From Bifidobacterium dentium JCM 1195 = DSM 20436 (GTDB lineage: Bacteria > Actinomycetota > Actinomycetes > Actinomycetales > Bifidobacteriaceae), in contig NZ_AP012326.1 in NCBI RefSeq assembly GCF_001042595.1, forward strand, positions 372,001 to 436,000: 64,000 nt of DNA, read 5' to 3'. This document shows positions 13,937 to 35,712 of this stretch, in pieces (position 1 is the first letter of the stretch; each line of letters starts with the position of its first letter). The position numbers were made by a program, and so were the translations under genes. The notes beneath the pieces were generated by a model, which did not search any database, was not told the origin of the DNA, and was given only the letters and a program-made list of their open reading frames with translations.

Positions 13937-14524
13937 ATGCGCGTTATTTCAGGACGATTCAAGGGTGTGGCGCTGACCACGCCGAAAGCCGGTACCAGGC
14001 CGACCACCGACAGGACCAAAGAAGCGATATTCTCGCATCTGGATTCGTGGGGAGTGCTGGACGATGCGCGCGTACTCGACCTGTTCGCCGGAACGGGAGC
14101 TTTGGGCATCGAGGCGTTGAGTCGTGGCGCGCGAGAACTCGTAGCGGTGGAATCCTCCGCACCGGCGGCAACGTTGATCGCGCATACGCTGACTGCATTG
14201 AAGCGCAACCGTTCATGGGAATCGGGCATGAGCGCGCGCGTGATCAAGGCGCGTGCCGAAAAATATGCGGCAGGGGCCGCCGTCGCATCGTTCGACGTGA
14301 TTTTCATCGATCCGCCGTATATCTTCGAAACCGAGGCCTGCAATCAGTTGCTGTCTGACCTAGCGGGCGGCGACATGACATCCTCCGATACCATCATCGT
14401 GCTGGAACGGCCCACACGATCCGATGACCCGACTCCGCCGGACGGTTGGGTGATCGCCGACCGCCGTGACTATGGTGAAACCGCCGTGTACTACATCGAG
14501 CCCGCCAGCGTCGGTAATCTCTGA
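13937..14524 (+). CDS. rsmD: 16S rRNA (guanine966-N2)-methyltransferase
   Basis: A SAM-dependent methyltransferase of 195 residues starting MRVISGRFKG, the conserved RsmD opening. Motif I is DLFAGTGALGIEAL (about 48-61), and the catalytic DPPY is at residues 125-128 in FIDPPYIFE. A GTG two codons upstream is an alternative start. The last residues (ASVGNL, stop) are encoded by a half-copy of the intergenic palindromic repeat that follows, so the native C-terminus may have been replaced or extended. Confidence 0.94.
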   Translation: MRVISGRFKGVALTTPKAGTRPTTDRTKEAIFSHLDSWGVLDDARVLDLFAGTGALGIEALSRGARELVAVESSAPAATLIAHTLTALKRNRSWESGMSARVIKARAEKYAAGAAVASFDVIFIDPPYIFETEACNQLLSDLAGGDMTSSDTIIVLERPTRSDDPTPPDGWVIADRRDYGETAVYYIEPASVGNL

Positions 14525-14628
14525 CGTCCTCAATCCACCGACGCTGGCGGGCGTGCCAGCGTCGGTAGTTTGGGTATATCCTCAATCCACCGACGGTGAG
14601 GGGTGTGTCAGCGTCGGCAGATTGAGGG
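14500..14628. repeat. Palindromic repeat cluster A (two elements plus a half element)
   Basis: Elements at 14528-14574 and 14580-14628 each contain CAATCCACCGACG on the left and CGTCGGTAG or CGTCGGCAGATTG on the right, 52 bp apart. A half element at 14502-14519 forms the end of rsmD. A 15-bp perfect inverted repeat (14500-14514 with 14538-14552) competes with the internal hairpin of the first element. The second element encodes the last 15 residues of trmD on the minus strand. The cluster lies between convergent genes, where a terminator would be expected. Confidence 0.9.
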
Positions 14629-15541
14629 ATTCGCGCTTGCGTGGGTGAGGACCGGAAACCTCCCACCCCAAGGACATCAGTGTTTTGCGGTCAGCCTTGT
14701 CGAGCTGGGTGCAATCGAGAGCCTCGATCAGGTCCGGGCGCAGTTCGTCGGTCTTGGACAACGCCTCATCACGACGGAACCGATCCACCTTGCCATGATC
14801 GCCGGAAAGCAGCACATCCGGCACCTTGAGCCCACGCCATTCGGCTGGTTTCGTGTACTGGCGGTGCTCCAACAACGCATTGCCACCGGTGTAGGATTCC
14901 TCTACGATCGATGCCGGATTACCCATGAACCCCGGCATCAGGCGCGTAATGGCTTCCAACATGACGGAAACCGCCACCTCACCGCCATTCAGCACATAAT
15001 CGCCGATTGAATATTCGCGTACGTCAACGCCTTGCGCACGGTAATACTGCGGAATGCGAGCATCATAGCCTTCGTAACGACCGCAACCGAACAGCAGATG
15101 ATCGGCGTGGCTCAGCTCGGTCGCATCCTGCTGCGTGAACAGGGGAGCGGACGGATTCGGAAAGATCAGCACCGGGCGAGGCGAATCAGCGGCGGTACCA
15201 TCCGGAACTTCGGCAGTCGTATCATCCGTGGAAATCGATGCCTCACCGTCGCAAGTGCCGCAAGCATGTTCGGCAGCGCAATCGACGGCATCCGCGGCAA
15301 TCGTGGCCGGTGCGAGTCCCAGCAAATCATCAAGGCACTCGCTCCACACCTCCGGTTTCATGACCATGCCGGCGCCGCCGCCGACCGGGGTGTCATCCAC
15401 GGAATGATGCACGTCGTGCGTCCAATCGCGCAGATTGTGCGCCTGAACGGTGACCAGGCCCTTCGCCTGCGCCTTGCCGAGAAGACTGAGGTTCAGCACT
15501 TCGAAATACTCCGGGAACACGGACACGATATCGATCTTCAT
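14582..15541 (-). CDS. trmD: tRNA (guanine37-N1)-methyltransferase
   Basis: A SPOUT-class methyltransferase of 319 residues (usual 230-260), starting MKIDIVSVFPEYF. The knot motifs LLFGCGRYEGYDARI (about 149-163) and EYSIGDYVLNGGE (about 176-188) are intact. Two additions explain the length: a 50-residue insert at about 72-122 with three cysteines (C88, C94, C97) and many acidic residues, and a C-terminal tail from about 305 (SLNLPTLTHPSPSVD) encoded by a palindromic repeat element. The upstream in-frame ATG at 15634 was rejected because the family begins at MKID. Confidence 0.95.
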   Translation of the reverse strand: MKIDIVSVFPEYFEVLNLSLLGKAQAKGLVTVQAHNLRDWTHDVHHSVDDTPVGGGAGMVMKPEVWSECLDDLLGLAPATIAADAVDCAAEHACGTCDGEASISTDDTTAEVPDGTAADSPRPVLIFPNPSAPLFTQQDATELSHADHLLFGCGRYEGYDARIPQYYRAQGVDVREYSIGDYVLNGGEVAVSVMLEAITRLMPGFMGNPASIVEESYTGGNALLEHRQYTKPAEWRGLKVPDVLLSGDHGKVDRFRRDEALSKTDELRPDLIEALDCTQLDKADRKTLMSLGWEVSGPHPRKRESLNLPTLTHPSPSVD

Positions 15542-15664
15542 ACTGCTCCACAATAGTGGGATGCCTGCCAAGAGGATTGCCAAAAGGGTCATCGAAGCGG
15601 GAAGATCCCGAAGCGTGAACGTCGCCGCGAGCATCGGAGCATGGATGCCGGGGCAATCCGATGT

Positions 15665-17149
15665 CTACTTCTTGAGGCAACCATGCATGGCGCCGGTCGG
15701 CATGCAATGCATGTGGGTCAGATTATGCGGATCGAGGATGGAATCGAGCAATTCGGGGCTCAACACCTTCTCCTTCTGCGCGATCTCACGCACGGTGGTG
15801 TTCCTGACGAGCGCCTCCTGCGCGATGGTCATGGCCCGTTCGTAGCCGATATAGCCGATGAGCGCAGTGGCCAGTGACGAGGAACGCATGACCTCATCCA
15901 TGCCGGCTTGCTCGTTCACCGTGATGCCGCTCACGCAGTGCTCGCGGAGCGTGTCCATGGCGTTGGCGAGCGTGTGCATGCCGGTCAGCAGCGCATGCAG
16001 CATTACCGGTTCGAATGCGTTGAGCTGCAATTGCCCGGCTTCGGCGGCACAGGATATGGTGGCGTCCATGCCCATGATCATGAACACGCACTGGTTCACG
16101 CATTCCGGAATGACCGGATTGACCTTGCCCGGCATGATTGACGAGCCTGCCTGACGGGCCGGCAGATGAATCTCCTCAAACCCTGCGCGTGGTCCGCTTG
16201 CCAGTAGCCGCAGATCGTTGGCGATCTTACCCAAATGCAGGGCGGTACGTTTGATGGCGCCGGACAAGGTGACGAAATCGCCGACGTCGCTGGTGGCTCC
16301 CACCGAATCGTCGGCCGCGCGGATCGGCAGATCGGTCAGCTCCGCAAGATGCCGGATCGCACGCTCGCGGAAACGTGCGTCGGCGCAGATGCCGGTGCCG
16401 ATTGCGGTGCCGCCAAGATTGACTACGGCAAGCGGCGTTTGTTGCGATGACAGCAGTCGTGCGTCGGCGTCGAGTTGCGAGGCGAAGCCGCCGAACTCCT
16501 GGCCGAAGGTCATTGGAACGGCGTCCTGCAGTTGCGTGCGGCCGATTTTGACGATCGGCATGGTGCGCTCCGACAATGTATGGAAGGCGTCGACGAGCTG
16601 GCTGGTGCGGTCGACCAGCATGCCGGAAGCGCCGATCAGGGCGAGTCGGCATGCCGCCGGATAGGTGTCGTTGGTGGATTGCGACTTGTTGACGGTGTCG
16701 TTGGGATGGATGATGTCATACTCGCCGCGTGCGTGGTGGCCGAGTTCCAACGCACGATTGGCGATTACCTCGTTCACGTTCATGTTGGTGGAGGTGCCGG
16801 CACCGCCTTGCAGCACGTCGACGGGGAATTGGTCGTTAAGCTCGCCGGAGGCCACGTCTTCGCAGGCTCTGTCGATGAGTGCCGCCTGATATGCGTTGAT
16901 ATTGCTGAGTTCGCCGTTGGCGCGGGCACAGGCTTGCTTGACCTGCGCATAGGCGCGGATGAGTTCCGGATGATCGCTGACGGTGATGCCGGAGACGGGG
17001 AAATTATCGATGGCGCGTAGCGTGTGAATGCCCCAGTAGGCTTCGGCGGGTATTTCGGCCGATCCGATGCAATCGTGTTCGATTCGGGTCTGATGCGCCT
17101 TGCGGGTCGGCGCGATGGGCCGCTGCGGGGTATGCAGTGTCAGTGCCAT
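15665..17149 (-). CDS. aspA: Aspartate ammonia-lyase
   Basis: Deaminates aspartate to fumarate and ammonia. The start is the ATG preceded by GGAGGAAC, giving 494 residues. Superfamily signatures are TSTNMNVNEVIANRA (about 119-133) and GSSIMPGKVNP (about 335-345), the flexible catalytic-serine loop. IVKIGRTQLQDAVPMTFGQEF fits aspartate ammonia-lyase better than fumarase C. Length is near that of AspA (about 470). A promoter and a long perfect inverted repeat lie upstream. Confidence 0.9.
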   Translation of the reverse strand: MALTLHTPQRPIAPTRKAHQTRIEHDCIGSAEIPAEAYWGIHTLRAIDNFPVSGITVSDHPELIRAYAQVKQACARANGELSNINAYQAALIDRACEDVASGELNDQFPVDVLQGGAGTSTNMNVNEVIANRALELGHHARGEYDIIHPNDTVNKSQSTNDTYPAACRLALIGASGMLVDRTSQLVDAFHTLSERTMPIVKIGRTQLQDAVPMTFGQEFGGFASQLDADARLLSSQQTPLAVVNLGGTAIGTGICADARFRERAIRHLAELTDLPIRAADDSVGATSDVGDFVTLSGAIKRTALHLGKIANDLRLLASGPRAGFEEIHLPARQAGSSIMPGKVNPVIPECVNQCVFMIMGMDATISCAAEAGQLQLNAFEPVMLHALLTGMHTLANAMDTLREHCVSGITVNEQAGMDEVMRSSSLATALIGYIGYERAMTIAQEALVRNTTVREIAQKEKVLSPELLDSILDPHNLTHMHCMPTGAMHGCLKK

Positions 17150-17191
17150 GGTGTTCCTCCTGGTTGCCGGATGTTTTCCGGTCCATGGCTC

Positions 17192-17220
17192 ACCATAATC
17201 GTAAGAAATACATCGCACAA
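17192..17220 (-). promoter_or_regulatory. aspA promoter (TTGTGC-17-TATGGT)
   Basis: On the minus strand, TTGTGC (17215-17220) is 17 bases from TATGGT (17192-17197), placing the start about 35 bases before the aspA ATG. The -35 is 7 bp from the inverted repeat that begins at 17228. Confidence 0.5.
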
Positions 17221-17227
17221 GATGAAT

Positions 17228-17283
17228 ATATCCCCGATATTCCGTAGGATGAGTCGATTCAATCGATGGAATATCGGGGATAT
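17228..17283. promoter_or_regulatory. 16-bp perfect inverted repeat upstream of aspA
   Basis: ATATCCCCGATATTCC (17228-17243) and its exact reverse complement (17268-17283) flank a 24-bp spacer that holds the nested palindrome TCGATTCAATCGA (17253-17265). Flanking TGAATATA repeats at 17223 and 17287 extend the symmetry. It is directly upstream of the proposed aspA -35 and downstream of rimM. It could be an operator or activator site for aspA, or a hairpin ending the rpsP operon; no T run follows. Confidence 0.7.
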
Positions 17284-17358
17284 GCTGCTGAATATACTTC
17301 GGGGGGCGGCGTCCGGGAATCTGCTTTGGCGGGAATCCGTTTTTTTGAGGGATTGCCG

Positions 17359-17958
17359 TTACAGTCCTGGAATGAGTCCGCCTGGCGGATTCAAAGTGAG
17401 ATAGCCTTCCTCCAAATCGATGTCCGGTACGAGCTCGTCGACGAACGGCACCAACGCACTGTTCTCAACGACCACGCCATCGGCATCCTTGACCGGGTTG
17501 GCGAGACGGATTTTCAGCAGCCATTGGGCCACCTCAATCACATCCACGACCTTGCCGATCGCCATACCGGGTTCGAGCCCCAGTGTGTTGTCGTCGGCAA
17601 GACGTGCCTCCAGACCGATCAGGTCTTTCGGATACCACTCGTCGGCCTGAAGCATCTCCTCCGGATCGTCGGCCTCGCCATAGAGCACAGTGCCGTTGGC
17701 GGCTTCTGACGAGTCACGATTGTCGATGCCCTCGAATTTGATGATCCAACGGTTCTTGAAGGTACGGGAGTGTTCCACCACGTACTCTTCTTCGCCGTCT
17801 TTCGTGTACAGCACAGCACCGGGAGCGAATCGGTATTCCGGTTCGTCCGTAAAGATCTGCACGGTGACTTCACCTTTGAGTCCCTGCGCACGTCCGATAC
17901 GACAGACCCTCAGCAGCTCAGGCTGTTGAGGGTCGTCTACATGCATCTCACGCACCAC
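17359..17958 (-). CDS. rimM: 16S rRNA processing protein RimM
   Basis: Assembly factor for the 30S head that binds S19. Of 199 residues, the N-terminal RimM domain (LRVCRIGRAQGLKGEVTVQIFTDEP, about 15-39) is followed by a PRC-barrel domain with EWYPKDLIGLEARL and PFVDELVPDIDLEEGYLTLNPP. A second ATG four codons in (17946) is an alternative start. It closes the rpsP-khpA-rimM operon, 9 bp after khpA. Confidence 0.93.
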   Translation of the reverse strand: MVREMHVDDPQQPELLRVCRIGRAQGLKGEVTVQIFTDEPEYRFAPGAVLYTKDGEEEYVVEHSRTFKNRWIIKFEGIDNRDSSEAANGTVLYGEADDPEEMLQADEWYPKDLIGLEARLADDNTLGLEPGMAIGKVVDVIEVAQWLLKIRLANPVKDADGVVVENSALVPFVDELVPDIDLEEGYLTLNPPGGLIPGL

Positions 17959-17967
17959 GCTAGGATC

Positions 17968-18207
17968 TCACCTGCGCACATCCATGATGTCGACGCGCAC
18001 CTTATGGTCGGACAGCGCCTGTACCACGGTGCGGATCGCATTGGCCGTGCGGCCGCTGCGTCCAATGACGCGACCGATGTCTTCCGGGTTCACGCGCACG
18101 CGAATAAGTTCGCCGCGCGCGTTCTCATGGGACTTGACGGAAACGTCGTCGGGAAAATCGACGATGTTCTTGATCAGATGTTCCACAGCCTGGGCGAGCA
18201 TGATCAC
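17968..18207 (-). CDS. khpA: KH-domain RNA-binding protein KhpA
   Basis: A small single KH-domain protein (79 residues from GTG). The KH core [18 protein letters not shown] holds the GxxG loop (GRSG). The GTG overlaps the rpsP stop as GTGA, indicating translational coupling; an ATG two codons on is an alternative start. Found between rpsP and rimM in many Gram-positive bacteria, where KhpA proteins bind many RNAs and affect cell division. Confidence 0.92.
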
Positions 18208-18653
18208 TCAGCTTCCGCAGCCGGCTCTTCAGCCGGGGCTTCCTCAGTGGCGGCGGCTTCGGCTTCGGCGGCGGCCTTGGCGGCGGCTTCAGACTTTGCT
18301 GCCTTCAGCTTCTGGGCCTGGGCTTCGACGGCCTCAACACGAGCGGCGGCATCCGGACCAGCCTCAACGGTTTTCAGGGTGCCCTCAGCACCGTCGAGAC
18401 CCTTGAACTTCTGCCAGTCACCGGTGATCTTCAGCAGGTTCAGCACCTGCTCGGTCGGCTGGGCGCCAACGCCGAGCCAGTACTGAGCGCGCTCGGAATT
18501 GATGTTGATGGTCGAAGGCTGGGTGTTCGGATTGTAGGTACCGATCTCTTCGATGGCGCGGCCATCACGCTTGGTACGGGAATCCATGATCACCACGCGG
18601 TAGAACGCGTAGAACTTCTTACCCATGCGCTTCAGACGAATCTTGGTTGCCAA
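18204..18653 (-). CDS. rpsP: 30S ribosomal protein S16 with Ala/Glu-rich tail
   Basis: The conserved S16 core ([21 protein letters not shown] to about residue 90) is followed by a tail of some 55 residues built of Ala, Glu, Lys and Pro, so 149 residues in total against about 80-90 in E. coli. Such tails are common in actinobacterial S16. AAGGAGAGC is the SD. First gene of rpsP-khpA-rimM. Confidence 0.96.
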
Positions 18654-18777
18654 AATGGCTCTCCTTGTAACTAGGGGTGTGTGTTTCGTGTTCTGTGTGG
18701 GGCACGGAATCCGAAACCCACGTGTTCCTCACGTCACGCGATAGTTAGAGGGCTTCGCGCGCGCGAATAACTGGGTA

Positions 18778-18783
18778 ATTATA
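18778..18783 (-). promoter_or_regulatory. rpsP -10 box
   Basis: A perfect TATAAT on the minus strand about 125 bases upstream of rpsP. No clear -35 at the normal distance, so the assignment rests on the -10 alone. Confidence 0.45.
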
Positions 18784-18833
18784 ACTGTGGGGTCTGGACG
18801 CGCCGGCATCGCGCGTCGGCAATCCTCCTGCTT

Positions 18834-19035
18834 TCCCAATCTACCGACGGTGGCGTGCCCTTAGCGTCGGCGGATTATGGCGCCACCCAATCTACCGACG
18901 GTGACAGCGTCTCAGTGTCGGCGGATTGTGAAGATCACTCAATCTACCGATTCTGGCAGCGCCTTGCCGTCGGTAGATTGTGAGGTTTCCCAAACTGTCG
19001 ACGGTGGCGTGCCTTTAGCGTCGGTGGATTGGGAA
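18834..19035. repeat. Palindromic repeat cluster B (four elements)
   Basis: Elements at 18834-18880, 18884-18930, 18938-18984 and 18987-19035, spaced 49-54 bp. Left arms read CCAATCTACCGACGG, or variants in the third and fourth copies. Right arms read CGTCGGCGGATTA, TGTCGGCGGATTG, CGTCGGTAGATTG and CGTCGGTGGATTG. This is the only cluster in a divergent region, between the 5' ends of rpsP and the EEP gene, so not all clusters sit at gene ends. Confidence 0.9.
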
Positions 19036-19192
19036 ACGACTTGCCGGGTTGTCTGATTCTGGAGAATCGGACAACCGTGAGGTGTTTGGGCGGGTCTGAT
19101 TGTCCGGACTTCCGGAATCAGCCAAATTGGATACACTGGGGAATCTACGTATTCGATCTTGCAACGAACGGTTTGCAAAGGGAGTTGCCTCG

Positions 19193-20236
19193 ATGATTAT
19201 CGCGCTTTGGATTGTGTTGCTGGTCTGCATCGTGTGGATTGCGCTCGGTGAAATGCCTGCCGGATGGGACGGCCATCTACCGTTGCCGTATCTGATTGCG
19301 CTGATTCCGTTCATGTGGATTCCGACGCTGACCATTTCGATTGCTGGGTTCGCGCTGCATGAAATCGCTCTCGGCTGCACTGCGCTGGCCGTCTGCCTTG
19401 CATCACTATTGCGTAAGGAACAGTATTGGATCAACAATCTGCAGACGCACAACACTGCGCAGATGATTGCCGACAGGCTTGCGGAAAAGCGTGAAACATC
19501 GCGTGAAAACAATACTGAGGAGACCGAGACTGGAGCGGAGGACGCCCGGCATGGTCAGTTCCGCGTGATGACGCTGAACTGCCGATTCGGCCGTGCAAAT
19601 GCTGCCGCGATTGTGGAAGCCGTCAAACGATATGACATCGCCGTACTTGCGTTGCAGGAACTTACGGAGAACCTGATCGCCGAGCTGGATGCGGCGGGCC
19701 TTGCCGATCTGTTGCCTTATCGTCAGCTGGGCGAGGTGAAGGAATCGGATAATGGCGGGTTCAACGGCGTCTGGATTCGTGTGGAACCAAGTGATGCTTC
19801 ACCGGTCACGGTGGTGATTCCGGCCGCCGATGTGCCGGGACTATGCTTTCCGATTGATTCGATGCGGAGCATCACCTTTGCGTCGGCGCATCCGAAATCG
19901 CCGATGCGCGGCTGCCGCGACTGGTCTGCTGGCATTATCGGATTGGGCGCCTTCGCTACTACGCAGAATCAAGGTGATATCACCGTGGTGATGGGCGATC
20001 TGAACTCCGGTACCGATCATCCGAGTTTCAGAAAGCTAATGCGGCTGGGATTCAAGGATGCCGCGTTGGTCGAGGCGAAAGGTCGCCGTGCTACGTTCCC
20101 CTCATGGCTGCCGTGGCCGCGCATCATTCTTGACCATGTATTGTTCACGTCGGGGCTGGATGCCTCCGACGTGCGGTCCTTCACCGTCGAAGGTAGCGAT
20201 CATCTGGCGCTGGCCGCCACCCTGACTCTCAAATAA
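19193..20236 (+). CDS. Membrane-anchored endonuclease/exonuclease/phosphatase (EEP) family protein
   Basis: Starts at the ATG preceded by AAAGGGAGTTG, giving 347 residues. Three hydrophobic spans occupy about 1-95, followed by a charged linker (about 105-120). An EEP domain follows with RVMTLNCRFG, LALQELTENL (catalytic Glu), VVMGDLNSGTDHPSF (Asp/Asn pair) and the terminal GSDHLAL (Asp-His). The fold includes nucleases, sphingomyelinases and phosphoinositide phosphatases; the bacterial membrane-linked versions are uncharacterised, so the substrate is open. It converges on ffh. Confidence 0.85.
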   Translation: MIIALWIVLLVCIVWIALGEMPAGWDGHLPLPYLIALIPFMWIPTLTISIAGFALHEIALGCTALAVCLASLLRKEQYWINNLQTHNTAQMIADRLAEKRETSRENNTEETETGAEDARHGQFRVMTLNCRFGRANAAAIVEAVKRYDIAVLALQELTENLIAELDAAGLADLLPYRQLGEVKESDNGGFNGVWIRVEPSDASPVTVVIPAADVPGLCFPIDSMRSITFASAHPKSPMRGCRDWSAGIIGLGAFATTQNQGDITVVMGDLNSGTDHPSFRKLMRLGFKDAALVEAKGRRATFPSWLPWPRIILDHVLFTSGLDASDVRSFTVEGSDHLALAATLTLK

Positions 20237-20243
20237 TCCGGCA

Positions 20244-20396
20244 TCCTCAATCTGCCGACGCTTACAGCACCCTGAGCGTCGGCAGATTGAGACAGCACCG
20301 CAATCTACCGACGGTGACGGTCCGTGAGTGTCGGCAGATTGGATATTCTCCCAAACTGCCGACGGTGAGGTGCTGTGAGCGTCAGCAGAGTGAGGA
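20244..20396. repeat. Palindromic repeat cluster C (three elements)
   Basis: Elements at 20244-20292, 20299-20342 and 20349-20396, about 50-55 bp apart, starting 7 bases after the EEP stop. Arms read CAATCTGCCGACGC, CAATCTACCGACGG and CAAACTGCCGACGG on the left, with CGTCGGCAGATTG, TGTCGGCAGATTG and CGTCAGCAGAGTG on the right. The third is the most degenerate of the family. Confidence 0.9.
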
Positions 20397-20417
20397 GAAT
20401 GAGAAGGCATACGCGAA

Positions 20418-20449
20418 GAGGGCATCGGATTGGCTTCCGATGCCCTCTG
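20418..20449. terminator. Bidirectional hairpin between EEP gene and ffh
   Basis: A 13-bp inverted repeat AGAGGGCATCGGA / TCCGATGCCCTCT with a 6-nt loop, in the convergent gap after repeat cluster C. No T run on either strand. Confidence 0.65.
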
Positions 20450-20463
20450 TTGGCGAGTGAACC

Positions 20464-20568
20464 GATCCGTAGGTGGGTGGTTCCGCAGGCGGGTGGTTCC
20501 CAGTAGGGGTGGATGGCTCGTGAGCGGACGATCACCCCATAGCGGATAGATCCGCAGGCGGGCGATCC
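20464..20568. repeat. Degenerate GATCCGCAGGCGGG-type direct repeats
   Basis: Related units of about 20 bp: GATCCGTAGGTGGGTGGTTC (20464), TTCCGCAGGCGGGTGGTTCC (20481), a diverged copy near 20501 and GATCCGCAGGCGGGCGATCC (20549). They fill the rest of the 347-bp convergent gap up to the ffh stop and differ from the ACCGACG palindromes. Confidence 0.6.
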
Positions 20569-20583
20569 TGCAGTCGGAACGGG

Positions 20584-22227: not shown

Positions 22228-22287
22228 AATGTTCCCCAGTCTAGCCGTTTGCTCGGATAGATGACTATGCGATGGACGATTGGACGA

Positions 22288-23931: not shown

Positions 23932-23997
23932 ACCCACGAGAGTATTGCCAGAATCGGACATACTAATGCATGGAATCCGCAGGCTAAGTGGAAAACG

Positions 23998-24025: not shown

Positions 24026-24058
24026 TGTTGTTTACGTGGGTGATGTAACAATGGTTGC

Positions 24059-24787: not shown

Positions 24788-24794
24788 ACTGCCC

Positions 24795-24899
24795 CTCCTC
24801 AATCTACCGACGCTGAGGACCGTCTGAGCGTCGGTAGTTTGGGATGTTCCCCAATCTACCGACGGTGAGGGGCCGTGAGTGTCGGTAGATTGAGGAGGG
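24795..24899. repeat. Palindromic repeat cluster D (two elements, nested)
   Basis: Elements at 24795-24844 and 24847-24899, 52 bp apart. Besides each internal hairpin, the outermost arms form a perfect inverted repeat of about 20 bp (24791-24810 with 24881-24900), so the whole cluster could fold as one long cruciform-type hairpin. It lies between two co-directional genes, after the amidotransferase stop and before the ABC-F start. Confidence 0.9.
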
Positions 24900-27175: not shown

Positions 27176-27232
27176 GCCCAAGAACATAGACCCAGAACAT
27201 GGATGGCAGCGTTGCCGTCGGATGCTGAGGAC

Positions 27233-27280
27233 GATGAAGGGCGGTACCTGCGAGATGAATCGCAGGCACCGCCCTTCATC
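27233..27280. terminator. Bidirectional terminator between ABC-F gene and ilvN
   Basis: A 20-base arm (27233-27252) pairs with 27261-27280 with a single mismatch and an 8-nt loop, located centrally between the convergent stops. Confidence 0.8.
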
Positions 27281-27306
27281 GTGTTTCGATGTAACTCAGA
27301 CGCCGA

Positions 27307-27861: not shown

Positions 27862-27888
27862 GATTGGACCTTCCTTCCGCTTACTCGT

Positions 27889-29754
27889 TCACTCGTTCTC
27901 GGCCGCGGCGCGCTGCAGCGGCTTGATACCCGGCATGTAGGTCACGTCGTCGTTGGAGGCGCCGGCGGCGACCATCGGCCATACCATGGCATCCTTCCAC
28001 ACACGGAAGTCGATGAGTACCGGTCGGTCGTTGATCGCGTTGGCCTTCTTGATGCATTCGATGGCCTCTTCCTCGGTGAATGCGCGCATTCCGACGCAAC
28101 CATACGCCTCGGCGAGTTTCACGAAGTCCGGCACGTCCATGATGTCAGGCGTGTTTTCGCCATCCAGCAGATTCGTGGCGGAATAGTGATGCTCGTAGAA
28201 CAGGGTCTGCCATTGGCGCACCATGCCGTATACGGAGTTGTTCAGCAGGGCGATCTTGATCGGAGTGCGGTCGAGGAACGCGGTGGCCAGCTCTTCGGAG
28301 GTCATCTGGAAGGAGCCGTCGCCGTCGATCAGCCACACCGGCTTCTTGTCGGCGAACTCGCGTGCGGAGCCGACGCGTGCACCGATGGCCGCGGGTAGGC
28401 CGAAGCCCATCGTGCCAAGTCCTCCGGAGGAGATCCAGGAGTGCGGCTTGTCGAATTCGATGATTTGGGTGGCCCACATCTGATGCTGGCCCACGCCGGA
28501 AACCCAGATGGTGTCGGGGTCGGCCATAACGGACAGCTGCTTGACGACCCATTGCGGGGCGAGTGAGCCGTCGGTGGGCTGCTCCCACTTGATCGGATAG
28601 TCTTCGACCCACTTGTTGATGACTTCCCACCAGTGACTTATGTCCGGCTTGCCGTGCATGGCCTGCTCGCGCTTGATTTCCGGGATGAGATCCTTGAGCA
28701 CGGTCGCCACATCGCCTACGATTGGCACGTCCGGTTGACGGTTCTTGCCGATTTCCGCCGGATCGATGTCTATATGGATGACGCGCGCGCCCGGTGCGAA
28801 AGCATCGAGCTTGCCGGTGACGCGATCGTCGAAACGTGCGCCGATTGCGACCAGCAGATCGCAACGCTGCACTGCGCCGGTTGCGGCGATGGTACCGTGC
28901 ATGCCGAGCATGCCGAGCACCTTCGGATCGGAATCCGGCACGATGCCGCGTGCCGGCAGCGTGGTGACGATCGGTGCATCGGTGATCTCGGCCAGCTCTT
29001 TGACGAGCTCGCCCGCGTCGGAACGCACCGCACCGCCGCCTACATACAGCACCGGGCGGTAGGACTGCTCGAACAGTTTGGCAGCATCGGACAGCACGCG
29101 GCCGTGAGCCTTGGTGGTCGGATTGTAGCCGGGCAGAATCATGCGCTGCGGCCAGGAGTAGTACATGTCACCGGTCTGTGCGGTCTTGGTGATGTCCACC
29201 ACCACAGGGCCGGGGCGACCGGAGCGTGCGATGTAGTGCGCTTCGGCAAGCACGCGCGGAATATCCTGCGCGCGCGTGACGAGGTAGGAATGCTTGACCA
29301 CCGGATAGGTGGCTCCGACGATATCGGCCTCCTGGAAGGCGTCCGTGCCAATCGCGTTCACGCCCACCTGCCCGGTGATCACGACCAACGGAATGGAGTC
29401 CATGTTCGCATCGGCAATCGGGGTGATCATGTTCGTGGCGCCCGGGCCGGAGGTCACGATGCACACGCCCACACGGCCGGTCGCCACGGCATAGCCTTCG
29501 GCGGCATGGCCTGCGGCCTGCTCGTGGCGCATCAGTACGAATCGGAATTTCGTATCGTCCTTGATCGCATGGTAGACCGGCAGAATCGCACCGCCCGGAA
29601 TGCCGAAAACGTCCTGAACTCCCAGATCCTCCAGCGAACGAACCAGCGCTTCGGCGCCGGTCATCTTCTCGCCGTCGACAATGGTCTGCTTTTCAGTGTT
29701 GGCGGATGCCTTGGGCATGCCGCTGAATGCCTGCAGAGGCGTAGGTAACACCAT
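27889..29754 (-). CDS. ilvB: Acetolactate synthase, large (catalytic) subunit
   Basis: ThDP-dependent first enzyme of valine, leucine and isoleucine synthesis. The second ATG is preferred as start because AGAGGGAA sits just before it and would lie inside the first codons of the upstream ATG (29766); this gives 621 residues. The ThDP-activating glutamate is in RHEQAAGHAAEGYA, and the metal/diphosphate motif is DGDGSFQMTSEELATA, followed by LLNNSVYGMVRQWQ. With ilvN it forms the complete enzyme. Confidence 0.97.
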   Translation of the reverse strand: MVLPTPLQAFSGMPKASANTEKQTIVDGEKMTGAEALVRSLEDLGVQDVFGIPGGAILPVYHAIKDDTKFRFVLMRHEQAAGHAAEGYAVATGRVGVCIVTSGPGATNMITPIADANMDSIPLVVITGQVGVNAIGTDAFQEADIVGATYPVVKHSYLVTRAQDIPRVLAEAHYIARSGRPGPVVVDITKTAQTGDMYYSWPQRMILPGYNPTTKAHGRVLSDAAKLFEQSYRPVLYVGGGAVRSDAGELVKELAEITDAPIVTTLPARGIVPDSDPKVLGMLGMHGTIAATGAVQRCDLLVAIGARFDDRVTGKLDAFAPGARVIHIDIDPAEIGKNRQPDVPIVGDVATVLKDLIPEIKREQAMHGKPDISHWWEVINKWVEDYPIKWEQPTDGSLAPQWVVKQLSVMADPDTIWVSGVGQHQMWATQIIEFDKPHSWISSGGLGTMGFGLPAAIGARVGSAREFADKKPVWLIDGDGSFQMTSEELATAFLDRTPIKIALLNNSVYGMVRQWQTLFYEHHYSATNLLDGENTPDIMDVPDFVKLAEAYGCVGMRAFTEEEAIECIKKANAINDRPVLIDFRVWKDAMVWPMVAAGASNDDVTYMPGIKPLQRAAAENE

Positions 29755-30031
29755 GTTCCCTCTCATGCTCGTTCGTGGAATCTTCTCGCTGGGCTTCGTG
29801 TGCGGGCGCGTCGGTGAGCGCCGGGTGTCGAAGCCCCTTTTCGGAATGCGGCGTAATCGCTTGTGGCGACTGGGCTGCGCAAATTCCTTCGCTAGTAATC
29901 AGTCTATGCTAACGGCTGACAGCGGCGAAAAGCCGCAACGGCCCACATGCTGGCGTGTTGCGAAGGGGCGTGGTATAAGCCATCGGCGTAGTCTACTGAG
30001 TTCACTGCCAGCCCTTCGCCGATGAGCATGG
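29755..30031. other. ilvB leader and rnc 3' flank
   Basis: About 280 bases without a gene. A GCGGC-GAAAA-GCCGC hairpin lies at 29932-29946, and an 8-bp CATCGGCG / CGCCGATG inverted repeat close to the rnc stop could end rnc transcription. No leader peptide rich in Val, Leu or Ile codons was found, so classical attenuation of ilvB is not supported. Confidence 0.4.
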
Positions 30032-30916
30032 TCAGTGGCGATTGTCCAAAGCCTTCCAGCCGGCCTCGGCGGCGGCAAGCTGAGCCTTGCGCTTGCTGGA
30101 GCCCTTGCCGATGCCAATCACCTCGTCGGAGCCTTCGAGCATGGCTTTCGCGGTGAAAACCTGCGCGTATTCCGGGCCGGAAACCGACATCCGGTAATAC
30201 GGCTCGCCCAATCCCATGTCATGGGCCTTGACGGTCAGCGAGGTCTTCCAATCCAATGCCGGGCCTTCGGTGGCGACTTCGGCCAAAGTGTCATCAACCA
30301 GATGGTGCACGACTTTTCGCGCCTCATCGATACCGTGCTGAATGAACGTCGCGCCGATCAGCGATTCGACGATGTCGCAGAGAATGGAACTCTTCTCCGC
30401 GCCATGCTGTTCCGCCTCGCCGTTGCCGAGCAGGATGTACGGGCCGACATGCAGCTTCTCGCGGGCGATGTGGCTTAACGACTCTTCGGAAACGGCTTTG
30501 GCGCGCATCTTGGCGAGCTGGCCTTCCGTCATGTCGGGATGGGCCGCATACAGCGTTTCCGTGGAGACGAGTTCAAGTACGGCATCGCCGAGGAACTCCA
30601 GGCGTTCGTAGTTCTTCGCGCCTGGATGCTCGTGTGAGAAGGAGCGGTGGGTGAGCGCCTCGACCAGCAGTTCGGGGGCGAGTGTGGTGCCGAGTGCTTC
30701 CAGCAGCACGTTGGCGGTCATCTCGCCTTCCGTCGTGATGGAGGTGGAGATATGGGTCCTCTCCCGTGTATTCCCCGTAGACGCGGCGGTTGGGTCGGCA
30801 GGTGCCGTCTTCCCCTTGACCGCTGTTGGCCGTATGGCCTTGGACGTCTTGGACGCTTCAGGCGTCCGGGGGTTCTTGGATGTGGAGTTCTTGGTTCCGG
30901 TCTGATGGTGAGCCAT
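30032..30916 (-). CDS. rnc: Ribonuclease III
   Basis: Cleaves double-stranded RNA, including rRNA precursors. 294 residues. The catalytic signature ERLEFLGDAVLEL lies at about 104-116, the second acidic cluster is CDIVESLIGATFIQHG, and a dsRNA-binding domain fills about 222-290 (GIGKGSSKRKAQLAAAEAGWKAL). The first 65 residues are a Lys/Thr/Pro-rich extension. The ATG has the SD GAAGGAAG; an in-frame internal ATG at residue 66 would give a family-size protein and is possible. Confidence 0.95.
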   Translation of the reverse strand: MAHHQTGTKNSTSKNPRTPEASKTSKAIRPTAVKGKTAPADPTAASTGNTRERTHISTSITTEGEMTANVLLEALGTTLAPELLVEALTHRSFSHEHPGAKNYERLEFLGDAVLELVSTETLYAAHPDMTEGQLAKMRAKAVSEESLSHIAREKLHVGPYILLGNGEAEQHGAEKSSILCDIVESLIGATFIQHGIDEARKVVHHLVDDTLAEVATEGPALDWKTSLTVKAHDMGLGEPYYRMSVSGPEYAQVFTAKAMLEGSDEVIGIGKGSSKRKAQLAAAEAGWKALDNRH

Positions 30917-31108
30917 GATTGCTTCCTTCGTTAATCAGCCGTTGCGCACGTGGCGAGGCGACCAGTCACCTGGTCTCATTGCTACGCAAACAACGAATTC
31001 GTGCATAATCGTCGAGCGGAGGTTGATTCCGCCGATCCGCACTATGGTCAAGTCTAGCGAAATGGGGGACCGGAAGATCGCGGACCGAATCGCACTGCCC
31101 CAAATAGC

Positions 31109-31140
31109 AAAAACCCTGCCACCCGTCGATGGCAGGGTTT
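31109..31140 (-). terminator. rpmF terminator
   Basis: On the minus strand an AAACCCTGCCA / TGGCAGGGTTT stem of about 11 bp is followed by TTTTTTGC, 30 bases after the rpmF stop. It separates coaD-sepIVA-DUF177-rpmF from rnc. Confidence 0.9.
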
Positions 31141-31169
31141 CAATGCTATATACCGTTAGTCGGCAACAC

Positions 31170-31364
31170 TCACTTGGTGTGAATGGAGCGGACGGCCTCG
31201 CGGTACACACGGCCGCGGAAGGAGCCGCAGCTCGGGCAAGCCATGTGCGGCAGCGCCGGGGCGCCGCAGTTCGGGCAGGTAACGGTCTGGGCGGCCTTGG
31301 CCTTCCAGTTTGCGCGGCGGGAATGAGTATTCGCGCGCGAGGTCTTGTACTTAGGCAGTGCCAT
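31170..31364 (-). CDS. rpmF: 50S ribosomal protein L32
   Basis: 64 residues starting [20 protein letters not shown], typical for L32. The four cysteines in CPNCGAP and CPSCGSF form the zinc ribbon. SD GAGGAAAC. It follows the DUF177 gene, as in most bacteria. Confidence 0.97.
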
Positions 31365-31449
31365 GGTGTTTCCTCTATTTCGTTCGAACGATATGAGCTT
31401 AAGCGTTCAGTATCTTAACGTGAGCTCCGTACAAACGCCAAATCGAGCA

Positions 31450-32070
31450 TCATTCGCCATCGGCGGTACCCTCGAGACGGGCCTTGAGTCCTTCCAGCGC
31501 GGCGAAACGGATATCGGTCACATCATGATGATGATCGGGCTGCTCGTTCAGATCGATGCCACACTGCGAGCACAGTCCCTTGCAATCCGGCTTGCAGAGC
31601 GGTTGCAGAGGCAGCTCCTCCACCAGGGTATCGCGCAGCAGCGCCTCCAAATCGGCCCATGAACCGCCTTCGAGCAGCGGATAGGTGTCTTCGGACTCGT
31701 CTTCGCCCGCAACGATGTCGACTTCCTCCTCGGAGGCCTTGGCGCCATTCTTGCCGCCCTTGACGGCGGTTTTGTCTTCATAGGGGAAGAAGGCGGTGAC
31801 GTTCACGTCCCAGTTGCGCTGAATCGGCTTCAGGCAACGAGTGCACTCCGCATGTACCGGTGCGCTGATGCGCGCCGAAAGAATCAGACCGTCGACGATC
31901 GAATCGAAGGAGCCGACGACCTGCACATCCGCACCCTCGTCAACGCCGACGATTTCATCGCCGATGCCGCTGGGAGCGGGGAACATCGCGTCGAGCGGTT
32001 TGCTCTGACCTGCGCGGGATGCCACCTGCGCCACGGAAACCGCCCAAGGGGAGTCTTCGATACGTGCCAT
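31450..32070 (-). CDS. DUF177 (YceD) family protein
   Basis: 206 residues. Two conserved cysteine pairs, CTRCLKPIQRNW near the middle and CKPDC / CSQCG near the C-terminus, and the acidic segment between them define the DUF177/YceD family, which is usually encoded next to rpmF and is implicated in 23S rRNA processing. It starts 2 bp after the SepIVA-like gene stop, so it is translationally linked. Confidence 0.92.
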   Translation of the reverse strand: MARIEDSPWAVSVAQVASRAGQSKPLDAMFPAPSGIGDEIVGVDEGADVQVVGSFDSIVDGLILSARISAPVHAECTRCLKPIQRNWDVNVTAFFPYEDKTAVKGGKNGAKASEEEVDIVAGEDESEDTYPLLEGGSWADLEALLRDTLVEELPLQPLCKPDCKGLCSQCGIDLNEQPDHHHDVTDIRFAALEGLKARLEGTADGE

Positions 32071-32072
32071 AT

Positions 32073-32816
32073 TCAGCCTTCCGGATAGTCGTTCGATTCA
32101 AGGTGGGGCAGGTGCTCGCCGGCCTCGCGCTGGCGGTCGTACAGCACCCGCAATCCCGCTTGAACATCATGGTCAAGCTTGCCGAGCTGCTGCTGCAGCG
32201 ACTCCATCACCGTGGAACAGTACTTGTCGGCGCCCTGCGTGAGATGATCCGCCTTCGCCTGCGCCTGGTCGAGAATATCACGCGCCTTCCGCCGTGCGAT
32301 TTCGGTGACGTTCTCTTGCCCGGCCAGGAACTGCGCCTGCTCATTCGCCTCACGTACCGTATCGGCCGCTCGCGACTGCGCGGAGGCCACGATCGCATTC
32401 GCCTGCGTCTGCGCGCTCTCCAACCGACGTTCGGCCTCGCGCATCAGCGCCGATGCGCGCTCGAGCTGTACCGGAAGCATCTTCTTGAGCTGATCGAGCT
32501 GGTCGGTGAACATCTCACGATCCACCTTGACCACGCTGGGAGCGAACAGGCTCGGTTTGGCCTCCGTCAATGCGGCCTCCATATTGTCGATGATGTCGTA
32601 CACCGTCGTGAACTCCTCACGACTGTGTCCGGTCGGGCCCTCGGCGGAAGCGTCCGGATCGAGGGTCTCGCGCAGATCCGGCAGATCCGACATCGAGAAG
32701 GACGGCTTGCCGGAGGTCCGTGCGGCTACGGAAGCGGCCTGCACCGGCTGCTGCGAAGTCTGGTCGTCATCATCGGCCTGCGCAACGTCATAGGGTTGCG
32801 TTTCGTCTGTCATCAT
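32073..32816 (-). CDS. Coiled-coil protein in the SepIVA/DivIVA-like position
   Basis: About 247 residues; two adjacent ATGs are possible starts behind AAAGAGAG. The N-terminal 110 residues are acidic and unstructured, then about 115-245 is a long alanine/glutamine-rich coiled coil ([38 protein letters not shown]). The gene order coaD / this gene / DUF177 / rpmF / rnc parallels mycobacteria, where SepIVA, a DivIVA-domain septation protein, lies upstream of DUF177 and rnc. A septum or cell-envelope scaffold role is inferred from position and coiled coil. Confidence 0.7.
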
Positions 32817-33307
32817 GCTCTCTTTTCGTTCTTCAGCGCCTCGCCAAGCAGCGGAATCACGCAATCCGGCACCATGCCGGTGACGTCGCCGCCGTGACGC
32901 GCCACGTCCTTGACGATGGAACTGGAGATATGTTCCAGATCCGGCGCGGCCGGCAGGAACAGCGTCTCCACGTCGGCGAGCTTGCGATTGACCAAGGCCA
33001 TGCCCAGTTCGGCCTCATAGTCGCCGTTCTGACGCAGTCCCTTGACGATGACCGTGGCTCCGACCCGCTTACAGTAGTCGGTGATCAGCCCGGTGGTCGA
33101 AGCGACCTTGATATTGCGGCAACCGCGCTCTTTCAGCGCCTGGCGGATGATATCGACACGAGTGTCTTCCGAAAACATCGGTGTTTTCGCCGCGTTCACC
33201 GCGACCACCACATGCACTTCGTCGAAGAAATGCGCGCACCGCTCGATAACGTCCAGATGGCCGGCGGTGACGGGGTCGTACGACCCGGGACATACTGCAA
33301 TCGTCAT
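32813..33307 (-). CDS. coaD: Phosphopantetheine adenylyltransferase
   Basis: Penultimate step of coenzyme A synthesis. 164 residues. The nucleotidyl-transferase motif [13 protein letters not shown] (about 7-19) includes the HxGH-type TAGH, and the second motif is [15 protein letters not shown]. The stop overlaps the next gene's start (ATGA), so the two are coupled. Confidence 0.96.
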
Positions 33308-33471
33308 AGTCTTAAGGGTACCGCGCGCGGGCGAAGAAGCTGAGCATCTCCTTTATATATGAACGGTGCGTGGTTTACGAGGTTATGATAGAGGACAGTT
33401 GATGGCAGCGTATTGCATGGGATTCCGGCTGCGGGGTCCGCTGCCGAGGTTTTGTAAGGACGGAGCACACC

Positions 33472-33792
33472 ATGGCTTGGCATGCGATTGTTGATGGCGT
33501 CTATGATGACGCCGACCCGGTTTCGCCGCTTTCCGACCCGGATGCGGGCACCGGCACTGCGGTGCTGGAGCGTCCGGAGGAAAAGACGCAGCTTGATGAC
33601 GGCGGCAACGGTGATGCCGACCGTTTCGCGCATTACGTGTCGCGCGACCGCATCCAGGAATCGAAGCTCACCGGTCGCCCGGTCGTGGCGCTGTGCGGCA
33701 AGGTGTGGGTGCCTAAGCGTGATCCTTCCCAGTATCCGGTGTGTCCTGATTGCAAGCGCATCTATGACGAGATGATGAATTCCTCCTTCTGA
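33472..33792 (+). CDS. DUF3039 family protein
   Basis: A 106-residue actinobacterial protein. An acidic N-terminal half is followed by the conserved DRFAHYVSRDRI and VVALCGKVWVPKRDPSQYPVCPDCKRIYDEM. The cysteines (ALC, CPDC) suggest a small zinc-binding module. Function is not known. SD AAGGACGGAG. It lies divergent from coaD and is followed by a strong hairpin. Confidence 0.92.
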   Translation: MAWHAIVDGVYDDADPVSPLSDPDAGTGTAVLERPEEKTQLDDGGNGDADRFAHYVSRDRIQESKLTGRPVVALCGKVWVPKRDPSQYPVCPDCKRIYDEMMNSSF

Positions 33793-33865
33793 CGAGCCTG
33801 TGGCGTCGGCGGATCCGCAGAGGTTCCGTGAAAGCGGGCAAAAGCGGGCGCATGCGGAGGACATA

Positions 33866-33903
33866 TACGGGGGTTCGCGCAGTCTTGCGTGAGCCCCCGT
33901 ATG
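33866..33903. terminator. Bidirectional hairpin between DUF3039 and aldo/keto reductase genes
   Basis: ATACGGGGG pairs with CCCCCGTAT, extended inward by partial CGCG/TGCG pairing, in the convergent gap. Confidence 0.75.
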
Positions 33904-33939
33904 CGTGAATCCCGTGTTATGCCGAGTCGATGTGGCAGA

Positions 33940-34950
33940 TCAGCGTGACGAGATTTCGTCGATGCGACGTAGCTCCTCGTCGGTGAACGTGATGTTCCGC
34001 AGCGCGCCGATATTGTCGAGCAACTGTTGCGGGCGGGAGGCGCCGACCAGTACCGAAGTCACCATGCCGTCATGCAGCAGCCATGCGAGTGCCATCTCCG
34101 CGAGCGTCTGCCCGCGTTCGGCGGCCAGACCGTTCAGGTCGCGAATCTGCTGCAGCTTTGCCGGGGTCAAGGCATTCTCCTGCAGGAACCGCCCATCGTG
34201 CGCGATTCTGCTATCGGCCGGAATCCCGTTCAAATATCGGTCGGTCAGCAATCCTTGATCGAGCGGTGAGAAGGTGATCAGGCCCTTGCCGAGGCGATGT
34301 GCGGTCTCCTTCAATCCGTTGCGTTCCACGGTGCGGTCGAAGATGTTGTAGCGGTTTTGGTTGATGATGAACGGCACATGCAATTCGTCCAGGATGGCGG
34401 TGGCCTGTTCGAGCGTCGGGCCGTCGTAGTTGGACAGGCCCACGTAGAGCGCCTTGCCGCTGTGTACCGCGGTGGCCAGTGCGCCCATGGTCTCTTCGAG
34501 CGGAGTGTGTGAATCCATGTGGTGATGGTAGAAGATGTCCACGTAGTCGAGACCGAGGCGTTCGAGGCTTTGGTCGAGCGAGGCGAGCAGGTATTTGCGG
34601 CTTCCGAGGTCGCCGTAGGGGCCGAGCCACATCTCGTAGCCGGCCTTGGTGCTGATGATGAGTTCGTCGCGGTGATGGTGGAAATATTCGTGCAGCAGTC
34701 GTCCGCAGTTCTTTTCGGCTGAGCCGGGTTCCGGGCCGTAGTTGTTGGCCAGATCGAAGTGGGTCACGCCGTTGTCGAATGCGGTGAACACGATCTGCCG
34801 CATGGTGTCGTATGGGGTGATGTCGCCGAAGTTGTGCCAGAAGCCGAGGGAAACGGCCGGCAGTTTCAGGCCGCTTGCGCCCACGTGGTTGTAGGTCATG
34901 CTGTCATAGCGTGCAGGCGATGGCGTGTAGACGGTGGTTGGTTCGAGCAA
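33940..34950 (-). CDS. Aldo/keto reductase, YghZ/Gpr-like
   Basis: NADPH-dependent oxidoreductase with a TIM-barrel fold. The likely start is a TTG four bases after AAGGAGG, giving 336 residues; the ATG upstream at 35013 has no SD. DNGVTHFDLANNYGP carries the catalytic Asp and Tyr, LIISTKAGY the Lys and VDIFYHHHMD the His. MTYNHVGASGLKLPAVSLGFWHNFGD matches the YghZ group, which reduces L-glyceraldehyde 3-phosphate or methylglyoxal. It is divergent from a MerR regulator. Confidence 0.9.
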   Translation of the reverse strand: MLEPTTVYTPSPARYDSMTYNHVGASGLKLPAVSLGFWHNFGDITPYDTMRQIVFTAFDNGVTHFDLANNYGPEPGSAEKNCGRLLHEYFHHHRDELIISTKAGYEMWLGPYGDLGSRKYLLASLDQSLERLGLDYVDIFYHHHMDSHTPLEETMGALATAVHSGKALYVGLSNYDGPTLEQATAILDELHVPFIINQNRYNIFDRTVERNGLKETAHRLGKGLITFSPLDQGLLTDRYLNGIPADSRIAHDGRFLQENALTPAKLQQIRDLNGLAAERGQTLAEMALAWLLHDGMVTSVLVGASRPQQLLDNIGALRNITFTDEELRRIDEISSR

Positions 34951-35106
34951 GGTTCCTCCTTGAAAAAACGGGGCTGTTCGCCGCGATGCGTTGCGCGGCG
35001 CCGTTGAATCCATCGTCGCACTTCAAGTAAACTTGAACGCAAATCGTGGCAGGTGATGCACCTTCTGCCATGAGGGAATCTCAGGAAAAGGATTTGAGGA
35101 GGGGAG

Positions 35107-35529
35107 ATGGGCTCGTACACGATTCGCGAGATGGCGAGGAAGTTTGGCATGCAGCCGTCCACGTTGCGGTACTACGAAGATCAGGGATTGCTGACCGACG
35201 TCGGCCGCGACGATGCGGGGCGTCGTGTCTATGGCGACGAGCATATCGGGCAGCTGGAGGCGATCGCCTGCTTCAAGCATGCGGGCATGAGTATCGACGA
35301 GCTCAAGCGGTTCTTCGCCTATGAAGGCGACGAACGTACGCATATTTCGGACATGGTGGAGCTGTTGGAGAATCGCCGTGACGTTATCGTCGAACAGCGT
35401 GCCTCGTTGGAGGAGGCGTATATGCACGTGTTGCGCAAGCTGCATCTGTACAAGGATCTGCAGAGCAGTTATGAGAATGGTACGCAACCCCCGGATTGGG
35501 CCGATTACGACGGCAAGGACTTCCGGTAA
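35107..35529 (+). CDS. MerR-family transcriptional regulator
   Basis: 140 residues from the ATG behind GAGGAGGGG. The winged HTH YTIREMARKFGMQPSTLRYYEDQGLLTDVGRD is near the N-terminus, followed by the MerR dimerisation coiled coil (about 80-120). No cysteines suited for metal binding are seen in the C-terminal part, so a small-molecule or redox/aldehyde sensor is more likely than a metal sensor. It probably controls the divergent aldo/keto reductase. Confidence 0.9.
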   Translation: MGSYTIREMARKFGMQPSTLRYYEDQGLLTDVGRDDAGRRVYGDEHIGQLEAIACFKHAGMSIDELKRFFAYEGDERTHISDMVELLENRRDVIVEQRASLEEAYMHVLRKLHLYKDLQSSYENGTQPPDWADYDGKDFR

Positions 35530-35561
35530 CGCCTCTTCTCACCGTCGGCAGTTATAGGCAC

Positions 35562-35712
35562 TTCCTCAATCTACCGACGCTGAATGGTTGTAGGTGTCGG
35601 TGGTTTGGTTGGTTGCTCAATCTACCGACGGTGAGTGGTTGTGAGCGTCGGTGGATTGGGTGGTTGCTCAATCTACCGACGCTGAGTGGTTGTGAGCGTC
35701 GGTAGATTGGGT
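35562..35712. repeat. Palindromic repeat cluster E (three elements plus remnant)
   Basis: Elements at 35562-35610, 35614-35661 and 35665-35712, spaced 51-52 bp and the most regular of all clusters: the second and third differ at only a few positions. A reverse-oriented remnant (CTCACCGTCGGCAG) lies at 35538-35551. The array fills the gap between the convergent merR-type and pncB genes and reaches the pncB stop codon. Confidence 0.92.

Follow-up and report, generated by a model that had tools for sequence, protein, structure and literature searches.

Why does the chromosome of Bifidobacterium dentium carry rows of short palindromes, directly repeated at a nearly constant period, mostly at the ends of its genes? 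Five such arrays lie in the window studied here, that is, the whole 64,000-nucleotide stretch at positions 372001-436000 of the single 2,635,669-bp contig (the B. dentium chromosome). A first-pass annotation of this DNA had likened them to repetitive extragenic palindromic (REP) sequences and bacterial interspersed mosaic elements (BIMEs) and had proposed that their folded form is under selection. Most discussion of REP-like repeats treats them as RNA hairpins or as miniature transposons. We propose, with moderate confidence, that these are untagged REP/BIME-like arrays that are kept as double-stranded sites for a putative binding protein. We regard them as a new variant, without tags, of REP-like arrays: their placement resembles that of REPs and BIMEs, while their conserved property is the geometry of the double-stranded DNA.

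The repeat family is not restricted to the window, as the first-pass annotation had allowed that it might be, since the motif occurs at 20 loci in the genome, of which 18 are arrays and two, at 1499871 and 2215098, are single palindromes. These loci were obtained from a half-site scan together with a covariance model built from the 14 window copies, which gave 108 matches on both strands of the own genome (E up to 1), and a 13-mer, with up to one mismatch allowed, has 69 occurrences genome-wide against 2 for the reversed control. A half-site matrix places 116 half-sites, forming 53 complete arm pairs, at the 20 loci, where half-sites were counted only if located at most 30 bp from 20 hand-listed intervals and four single arms outside arrays (157087, 363325, 1373921, and 1893361) were set aside. 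The half-site can be written as CAAWCYRCCGACG-STGA, with the consensus CYCAAWCYRCCGACGSTGA over the 116 sites; positions C8 (113/116), C9 (115/116), G10 (115/116), and A11 (116/116) are near invariant, and the variable positions are W (T in 67, A in 45), Y (T in 86, C in 29), and R (A in 70, G in 46).

The spacing of the half-sites is held more tightly than the sequence between them. Their orientation alternates, a same-strand neighbor pair having been seen once, and, when opposite-strand neighbors at most 30 bp apart are taken, the inner gap is 15 bp (30 pairs) or 16 bp (23 pairs) in all 53 pairs, while the outer gap is 10 bp (35 cases), 11 bp (5), or 9 bp (2), all 42 falling within 9 to 11 bp. 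Between copies, half-sites are 83% identical, against 38 to 41% for the loop cores of 7 to 8 bp and 29% for the spacer cores; in both loops and spacers, length is kept where sequence varies. Half-sites of about 17 bp, in alternating orientation and with near-exact inner and outer gaps, would constitute a geometry of double-stranded DNA recognition. Since the gaps are near exact, the distance from one palindrome to the next comes close to a whole number of helical turns, by which the palindromes would present the same face. A sequence-specific, probably dimeric DNA-binding protein may occupy the half-sites side by side, and we infer that such a bound protein is the most likely reason for the arrays. 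Operator arrays of DNA-binding proteins likewise have conserved half-sites that form dyads spaced by whole turns; unlike operators, however, the 20 loci lie mostly at gene ends and not at promoters, the recognition word differs between species, and no known regulator is associated with them. The same measurements bear on the possibility, which we regard as rather unlikely, that the arrays are selfish or relic REP-like repeats, spread long ago by a transposase or by replication or recombination, with a spacing inherited from the founder unit: loops and spacers are near random in sequence but fixed in length to 0 to 1 bp, and neutral decay should bring indels.

Within the window, all 14 copies that had been claimed are present in five arrays, offset by 2 to 5 bp from where they had been placed. 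Most of their arms have 0 to 3 mismatches to the arm originally proposed, and arm matches with at most 3 mismatches number 47, compared with 20.9 in 100 shuffles (standard deviation [SD], 4.7; largest, 31). The copies are directly repeated as described, the period of 49 to 55 bp given before being measured at 51 to 53 bp from start to start, and each copy is indeed a hairpin, because its arms pair in register in 86.6% of cells, compared with 27 to 50% when slid. With neighboring genes named by Pfam, the features are as follows.

14531-14624, array 1: two palindromes (14531-14572 and 14583-14624), flanked by the convergent rsmD-like (Cons_hypoth95) and trmD genes.
18837-19031, array 2: four palindromes (18837-18877, 18888-18928, 18940-18980, and 18991-19031), with divergent neighbors, a putative rpsP-like gene (18204-18653) and an Exo_endo_phos gene.
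20248-20392, array 3: three palindromes (20248-20289, 20301-20341, and 20352-20392), flanked by the convergent Exo_endo_phos and ffh genes.
24800-24892, array 4: two palindromes (24800-24841 and 24852-24892), 13 bp past a GATase gene and ahead of an ABC-transporter ATPase gene.
35543-35709, array 5: three palindromes (35567-35607, 35618-35658, and 35669-35709), flanked by the convergent merR-type and nicotinate phosphoribosyltransferase genes.
35543-35555, minus strand, array 5: weak extra leading half-site.
35567-35579, plus strand: example half-site CAATCTACCGACG (left arm, array 5), with its partner arm at 35595-35607 on the minus strand, an inner gap of 15, and a next outer gap of 10.

The rpsP-like gene beside array 2 probably deserves this name, to judge from its position next to rimM. 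The claim that the copies are intergenic stands for the arrays generally and fails for the palindrome at 14583-14624, which overlies the last trmD codons (stop at 14582); the array of B. moukalabense also overlaps the trmD 3' end (L079 10855-10896). A different palindrome, GGTTGTCTGATTCTGGAGAATCGGACAACC, adjoins array 2 at 19047-19076, and the very similar TGTCCGATTCTG forms tandem palindromes with a 51-bp period in L082 and L203, so that a second family adjoins this array. An origin from phages or plasmids was rejected, as array 2 had no match in a phage collection and array 5 had none in a plasmid collection, each array having been compared with that one collection only.

The proposal that differences in one arm are often compensated in the other did not survive comparison with randomly dealt arms. 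The 14 copies pair in 86.6% of cells against 87.8% when the arms are dealt randomly, and pairs with changes on both sides number 1 against 2.8. Genome-wide, the 53 inner arm pairs of the B. dentium family (family A) are identical at 12.36 of 15 positions against 12.31 after shuffling (SD, 0.13), 1 of 21 single positions tested for arm agreement reached 0.04, and arms across the outer gap likewise show no agreement beyond that of random pairs. In a second family, from B. ramosum and B. hapali (family D), 51 pairs hold 793 identities against 794.6 when shuffled within species (SD, 9.6), an unstratified shuffle giving a weak excess of arm identity (0.02). Arms are therefore without covariation in two families, among copies within species, and, since the variable arm positions are independent, it is not the fold that is conserved, in contrast to the selection on folding that had been suggested. 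Of the two findings that the first-pass annotation had named as refuting its view, confinement of the motif to the window loci is thus not observed, whereas a lack of arm covariation is, in these two families and among copies within species.

These results bear directly on the alternative that the arrays act as RNA elements, namely, as 3'-untranslated hairpins that stabilize mRNA ends or that attenuate or terminate transcription, as has been proposed for REPs. We consider this improbable, even though the predicted folding is strong, the position directly past stop codons is suitable, and REPs are reported, in the accessible part of PMC2817692, to facilitate Rho-dependent termination: there is no excess of compensatory change in either family, 24 of the 53 pairs carry a mid-stem mismatch at the W position, and RNA hairpins give no reason for helical periods and fixed spacers. 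For the window arrays, intrinsic terminators were rejected, as a T run (5 T in 8 bases) is absent from all 28 flanks of the 14 palindromes, and the 11 terminator-like sites that were found in the window, by a scan that allowed loops of 3 to 8 only, all fall outside the arrays. At the gathering score, Rfam matched only three tRNAs in the window.

The double-stranded geometry, on the other hand, recurs in families with unrelated sequences, which the first-pass annotation had not seen, any more than it had the near-exact spacing with its helical periods. When 80 named loci around trmD (Bifidobacteriaceae, including a few Gardnerella and others) were searched for tandem palindromes of any sequence, 43 pairs, or 40 arrays in 1.59 Mb, were found, and none in one shuffle of each locus; other sampled regions of the genus gave 6 arrays in 0.75 Mb, and outgroup genera gave 1 strict array in 344 kb. 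The word of family D is unrelated to that of the B. dentium family: CGTAACTCAACA has 179 matches in B. ramosum (5 for the control) and 69 in B. hapali (12 for the control), and CGTAACTCA is the word of a B. ramosum array. In 20 stretches chosen from the listed places, plus L088, its inner gap is 15 in 50/51 cases and its outer gap is 24 in 46/47, with a period of 63. Family E, represented by GCAAGAAATTCSGG in B. cebidarum (90 matches against 31 for the control, with two mismatches allowed), has 68 of its 90 sites in 18 clusters, with an inner gap of 16 in 23/23, an outer gap of 17 in 21/21, and a period of 61 in 34/34 same-strand steps; in B. jacchi, pairs lie 61 to 62 bp apart.

Among 33 strict arrays with periods up to 90 bp, grouped by arm similarity into 24 sequence families (imperfectly, as a few families mix unrelated words), the period lies at most 1.5 bp from a multiple of 10.3 bp in 20 of the 24 families (29% expected by chance; p 5.6e-8), and the peak of a phase-fixed scan over 6 to 16 bp is at 10.3. 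A 200-kb E. coli sample, taken as a BIME comparator, contained 0 strict arrays and 1 relaxed array, too few to serve this purpose. Near-whole-turn periods common to several unrelated families are not what relics of a spreading repeat would lead one to expect. We tentatively extend the protein-binding reading to the genus, although with less confidence than we attach to it in B. dentium: there may be a class of arrays in which half-sites are held to whole turns and the recognition word is replaced by lineage, with a fast-evolving putative DNA-binding protein that co-evolves with its sites and whose identity, or at least tuning, would change from one species lineage to the next.

The location of the arrays offers an indication of what such a protein might do. 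With genes called by a codon-usage script, a gene 3' end is found at most 45 bp away from 16 of the 20 loci, compared with 5.1 at random (SD, 1.9; 0 of 2,000 placements reach 16), 1 of 20 lies within 45 bp of a gene 5' end (6.6 at random), and 10 of 20 lie between convergent genes (2.4 at random). Counted without random placement, 11 of the 23 clusters of family D have a 3' end at most 45 bp away, and a single cluster is divergent. A row of bound protein mostly just past stop codons, often between convergent genes, could serve as a roadblock or as an insulator where transcription units end, and would act there on read-through, antisense transcription, or supercoiling. Repeats without function may also be tolerated at gene 3' ends, where insertion is least harmful, and it is in favor of a selfish or relic origin that REPs elsewhere show the same preference for 3' ends and convergent genes, those between convergent genes lying mostly at most 20 bp from 3' ends (available text of PMC3733652). 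Compared with the same text, the resemblance to REPs and BIMEs noted in the first-pass annotation is borne out in three respects, namely, the size of the elements, their location outside genes, and their preference for 3' ends. At or directly past the trmD 3' end, other species also have tandem palindromes, made of other words (L083:10979-11092, L084:10948-11063, L088:10927-11040, L102:10970-11073, and L108:10873-10968), which suggests that this position repeatedly hosts such arrays. Clustering close to the origin was rejected, since, with dnaA at 466-966 and 1 of 20 loci in 0.79-1.9 Mb, there was no significant shift after merging neighbors (13 places, hand calculation).

Comparison with related genomes provides evidence both for and against a relic origin. 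The covariance model, run on genomes that represent each species once, has matches in 21 of 112 genomes of the genus (E up to 0.001), in 21 of 189 at the family level, one of which is a weak match in another genus, and in 1 of 256 at the class level, which is B. dentium itself (E up to 1e-4). In B. moukalabense (G051), 16 of 17 clusters with at least 2 half-sites adjoin DNA matching a B. dentium array locus, and 18 of the 20 B. dentium loci have a counterpart there, 15 of them one to one, two in one merged array, and one matched by L159; no B. moukalabense counterpart was found for loci 1996641 and 1997960. Such stable positions count against relics; species-specific families and differences in copy number inside the arrays common to both genomes are in their favor, as is a turnover of positions at larger distance, given that 3 of the 13 listed clusters in G006, a genome compared only with B. 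dentium stretches carrying arrays, adjoin DNA matching a B. dentium array locus. In 15 orthologous arrays of B. dentium and B. moukalabense, coding DNA is 90.4% and flanking noncoding DNA is 90.2% identical, and identity is 85.2% for half-sites, 76.0% for loops, and 70.2% for spacers, the half-sites being best held within arrays. Outer gaps in G006 are 9 to 10 (7 cases) or 20 (2 cases), about one turn more, within the same family.

Several observations on individual arrays may be added. In the stretches read, G008 and G014 have a region in which CTTCTRCCGACGCTGAG is intermixed with the related word CAAACTGGCTACGCTGAG, and CTTCTRCCGACGCTGAG is also seen in G100 and G101; at L183:18101-18651 (G008 C9), CCGACG and GGCTACG half-site types are mixed, as in mosaic elements. 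Two arrays (L072:6642-8126; G000 1996641-1998125) flank a 283-aa reading frame with a low coding score and no Pfam match. For an empty-site comparison at the G051 array at C2:225823, the B. dentium homologue is too diverged, and the palindrome in G051 forms a hairpin of another kind, which is also longer.

The absence of a transposase, claimed for the window, extends to the whole genome, in which the Y1 transposase (PF01797) has 0 matches, and it is likewise absent from all seven genus genomes with at least 40 model hits. Mobilization by a REP-associated tyrosine transposase (RAYT) was rejected on these grounds, and the same absence is at odds with relics spread by this enzyme. Y1 is present in 7 of the 112 genus genomes, of which four (G019, G059, G060, and G069) are among the 21 model-positive genomes, with 2 to 11 hits each (p 0.02); this over-representation accords with a relic origin, and a link to a few low-copy genomes may thus exist. 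In the accessible part of PMC6006769, RAYT-type REPs are defined by a GTAG or GTGG tetranucleotide 0 to 2 nt 5' of the stem. No such head occurs at that position in the 116 half-sites, C stands at position -1 in 97 of them, and GTAG occurs solely inside the paired arm. Taken together, these results disfavor three identities for the arrays: a RAYT-type REP, an intrinsic terminator, and an RNA element whose structure is under selection.

The arrays resemble REPs and BIMEs in being short, dispersed, extragenic palindromes in regular arrays at gene 3' ends and in convergent gaps (PMC2817692 and PMC3733652, as far as their available text goes), yet they comprise 53 complete arm pairs, compared with the >100 copies usual for REPs (same portion of PMC2817692). 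They differ from the GTAG-tagged, RAYT-associated elements in having no GTAG/GTGG head, no Y1 transposase found, and arms without covariation, as well as a fixed loop of 15 to 16 bp and, as a possible further difference, periods near whole turns. CGTC-tagged REPs (Di Nocera et al. 2013), as the accessible text of PMC3733652 describes them, are palindromic and extragenic, have no dedicated transposase known, and possess 8- to 9-bp stems, 4- to 5-bp loops, and an unpaired CGTC end, clusters being rare. The B. dentium arrays are similarly palindromic, extragenic, and without a dedicated transposase, but their CGTC forms part of the paired arm, their loops measure 15 to 16 bp, and clusters are the rule. 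TIGR-Tas guide arrays were rejected, since the Nop domain (PF01798) of a Tas protein is absent from the own genome. A literature search at the level of titles and abstract openings, with subscription papers mostly out of reach, found no description of such bifidobacterial arrays, and the palindromes mentioned in the available text of PMC2788695 and PMC7693768 concern CRISPR.

One pair of arrays raises the question of recombination. Arrays 2181121-2181237 and 2185413-2185552 (L074:5122-9553) have a near-identical stretch of about 50 bp in common and flank a cassette of MFS, LacI, and nucleoside-hydrolase genes; at this site in B. moukalabense, the cassette is missing and one array is continuous with both sides, so that arrays can provide the homology through which genes are gained or lost. 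Simple site-specific recombinase sites consist of inverted arms flanking a short core. The core geometry here, with 17-bp inverted arms around a variable core of 7 to 8 bp, and the two B. dentium arrays where B. moukalabense has one would fit recombination sites by which arrays recruit or lose gene cassettes. We nevertheless regard such sites as very improbable, given that this single clear case is explicable by ordinary homologous recombination between repeats, that array positions are otherwise stable, and that no recombinase is linked to the arrays in a search limited to the Y1 family.

Returning to arrays kept as double-stranded protein-binding sites, several points weigh against this reading: (i) the array-binding protein is putative, and the fixed spacing could be partly inherited from a recent founder unit; (ii) arms do change together in B. 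biavatii, B. aerophilum, and B. ramosum at the trmD 3' end (L083, L084, and L088), where, by eye, the loops are alike and all arms differ between species yet are palindromic, and concerted arm change thus does occur there; (iii) the predicted RNA fold of array 5 is strong, at -84.4 kcal/mol (z -9.2); (iv) orthologous half-sites (85%) are less conserved than flanking noncoding DNA (90%), so that the arrays turn over internally, with misaligned copies contributing to the lower half-site identity, although evolution of arrays faster than that of their flanks is as expected of recombining repeats; (v) inner gaps in B. moukalabense are 15 to 16 in 22 of 25 cases, the others being 11, 23, and 29; (vi) 3 of the 20 loci were scored between divergent genes, one of which, 787723, was tandem in an earlier run; and (vii) as regards phasing, 4 of the 24 families do not fit whole-turn periods, the 24 families are phylogenetically nonindependent, and the 1.5-bp tolerance and the period cut at 90, which left out 13 of 46 pooled arrays, were set after seeing the data, while, with the phase unfixed, the strict set has its peak at 10.8 for the named loci or 10.5 when pooled, and the best of seven tested values under relaxed detection is 9.5 (named loci) or 10 (genus sample).

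To conclude, the two families test the hairpin model directly, and its covariation prediction fails while the double-stranded geometry holds; the question of which protein, if any, REP-like arrays serve therefore becomes directly testable, with the array as a ready pulldown bait in a culturable commensal. The arrays may also reveal a DNA-binding system that acts at transcript ends, is new, and evolves rapidly.

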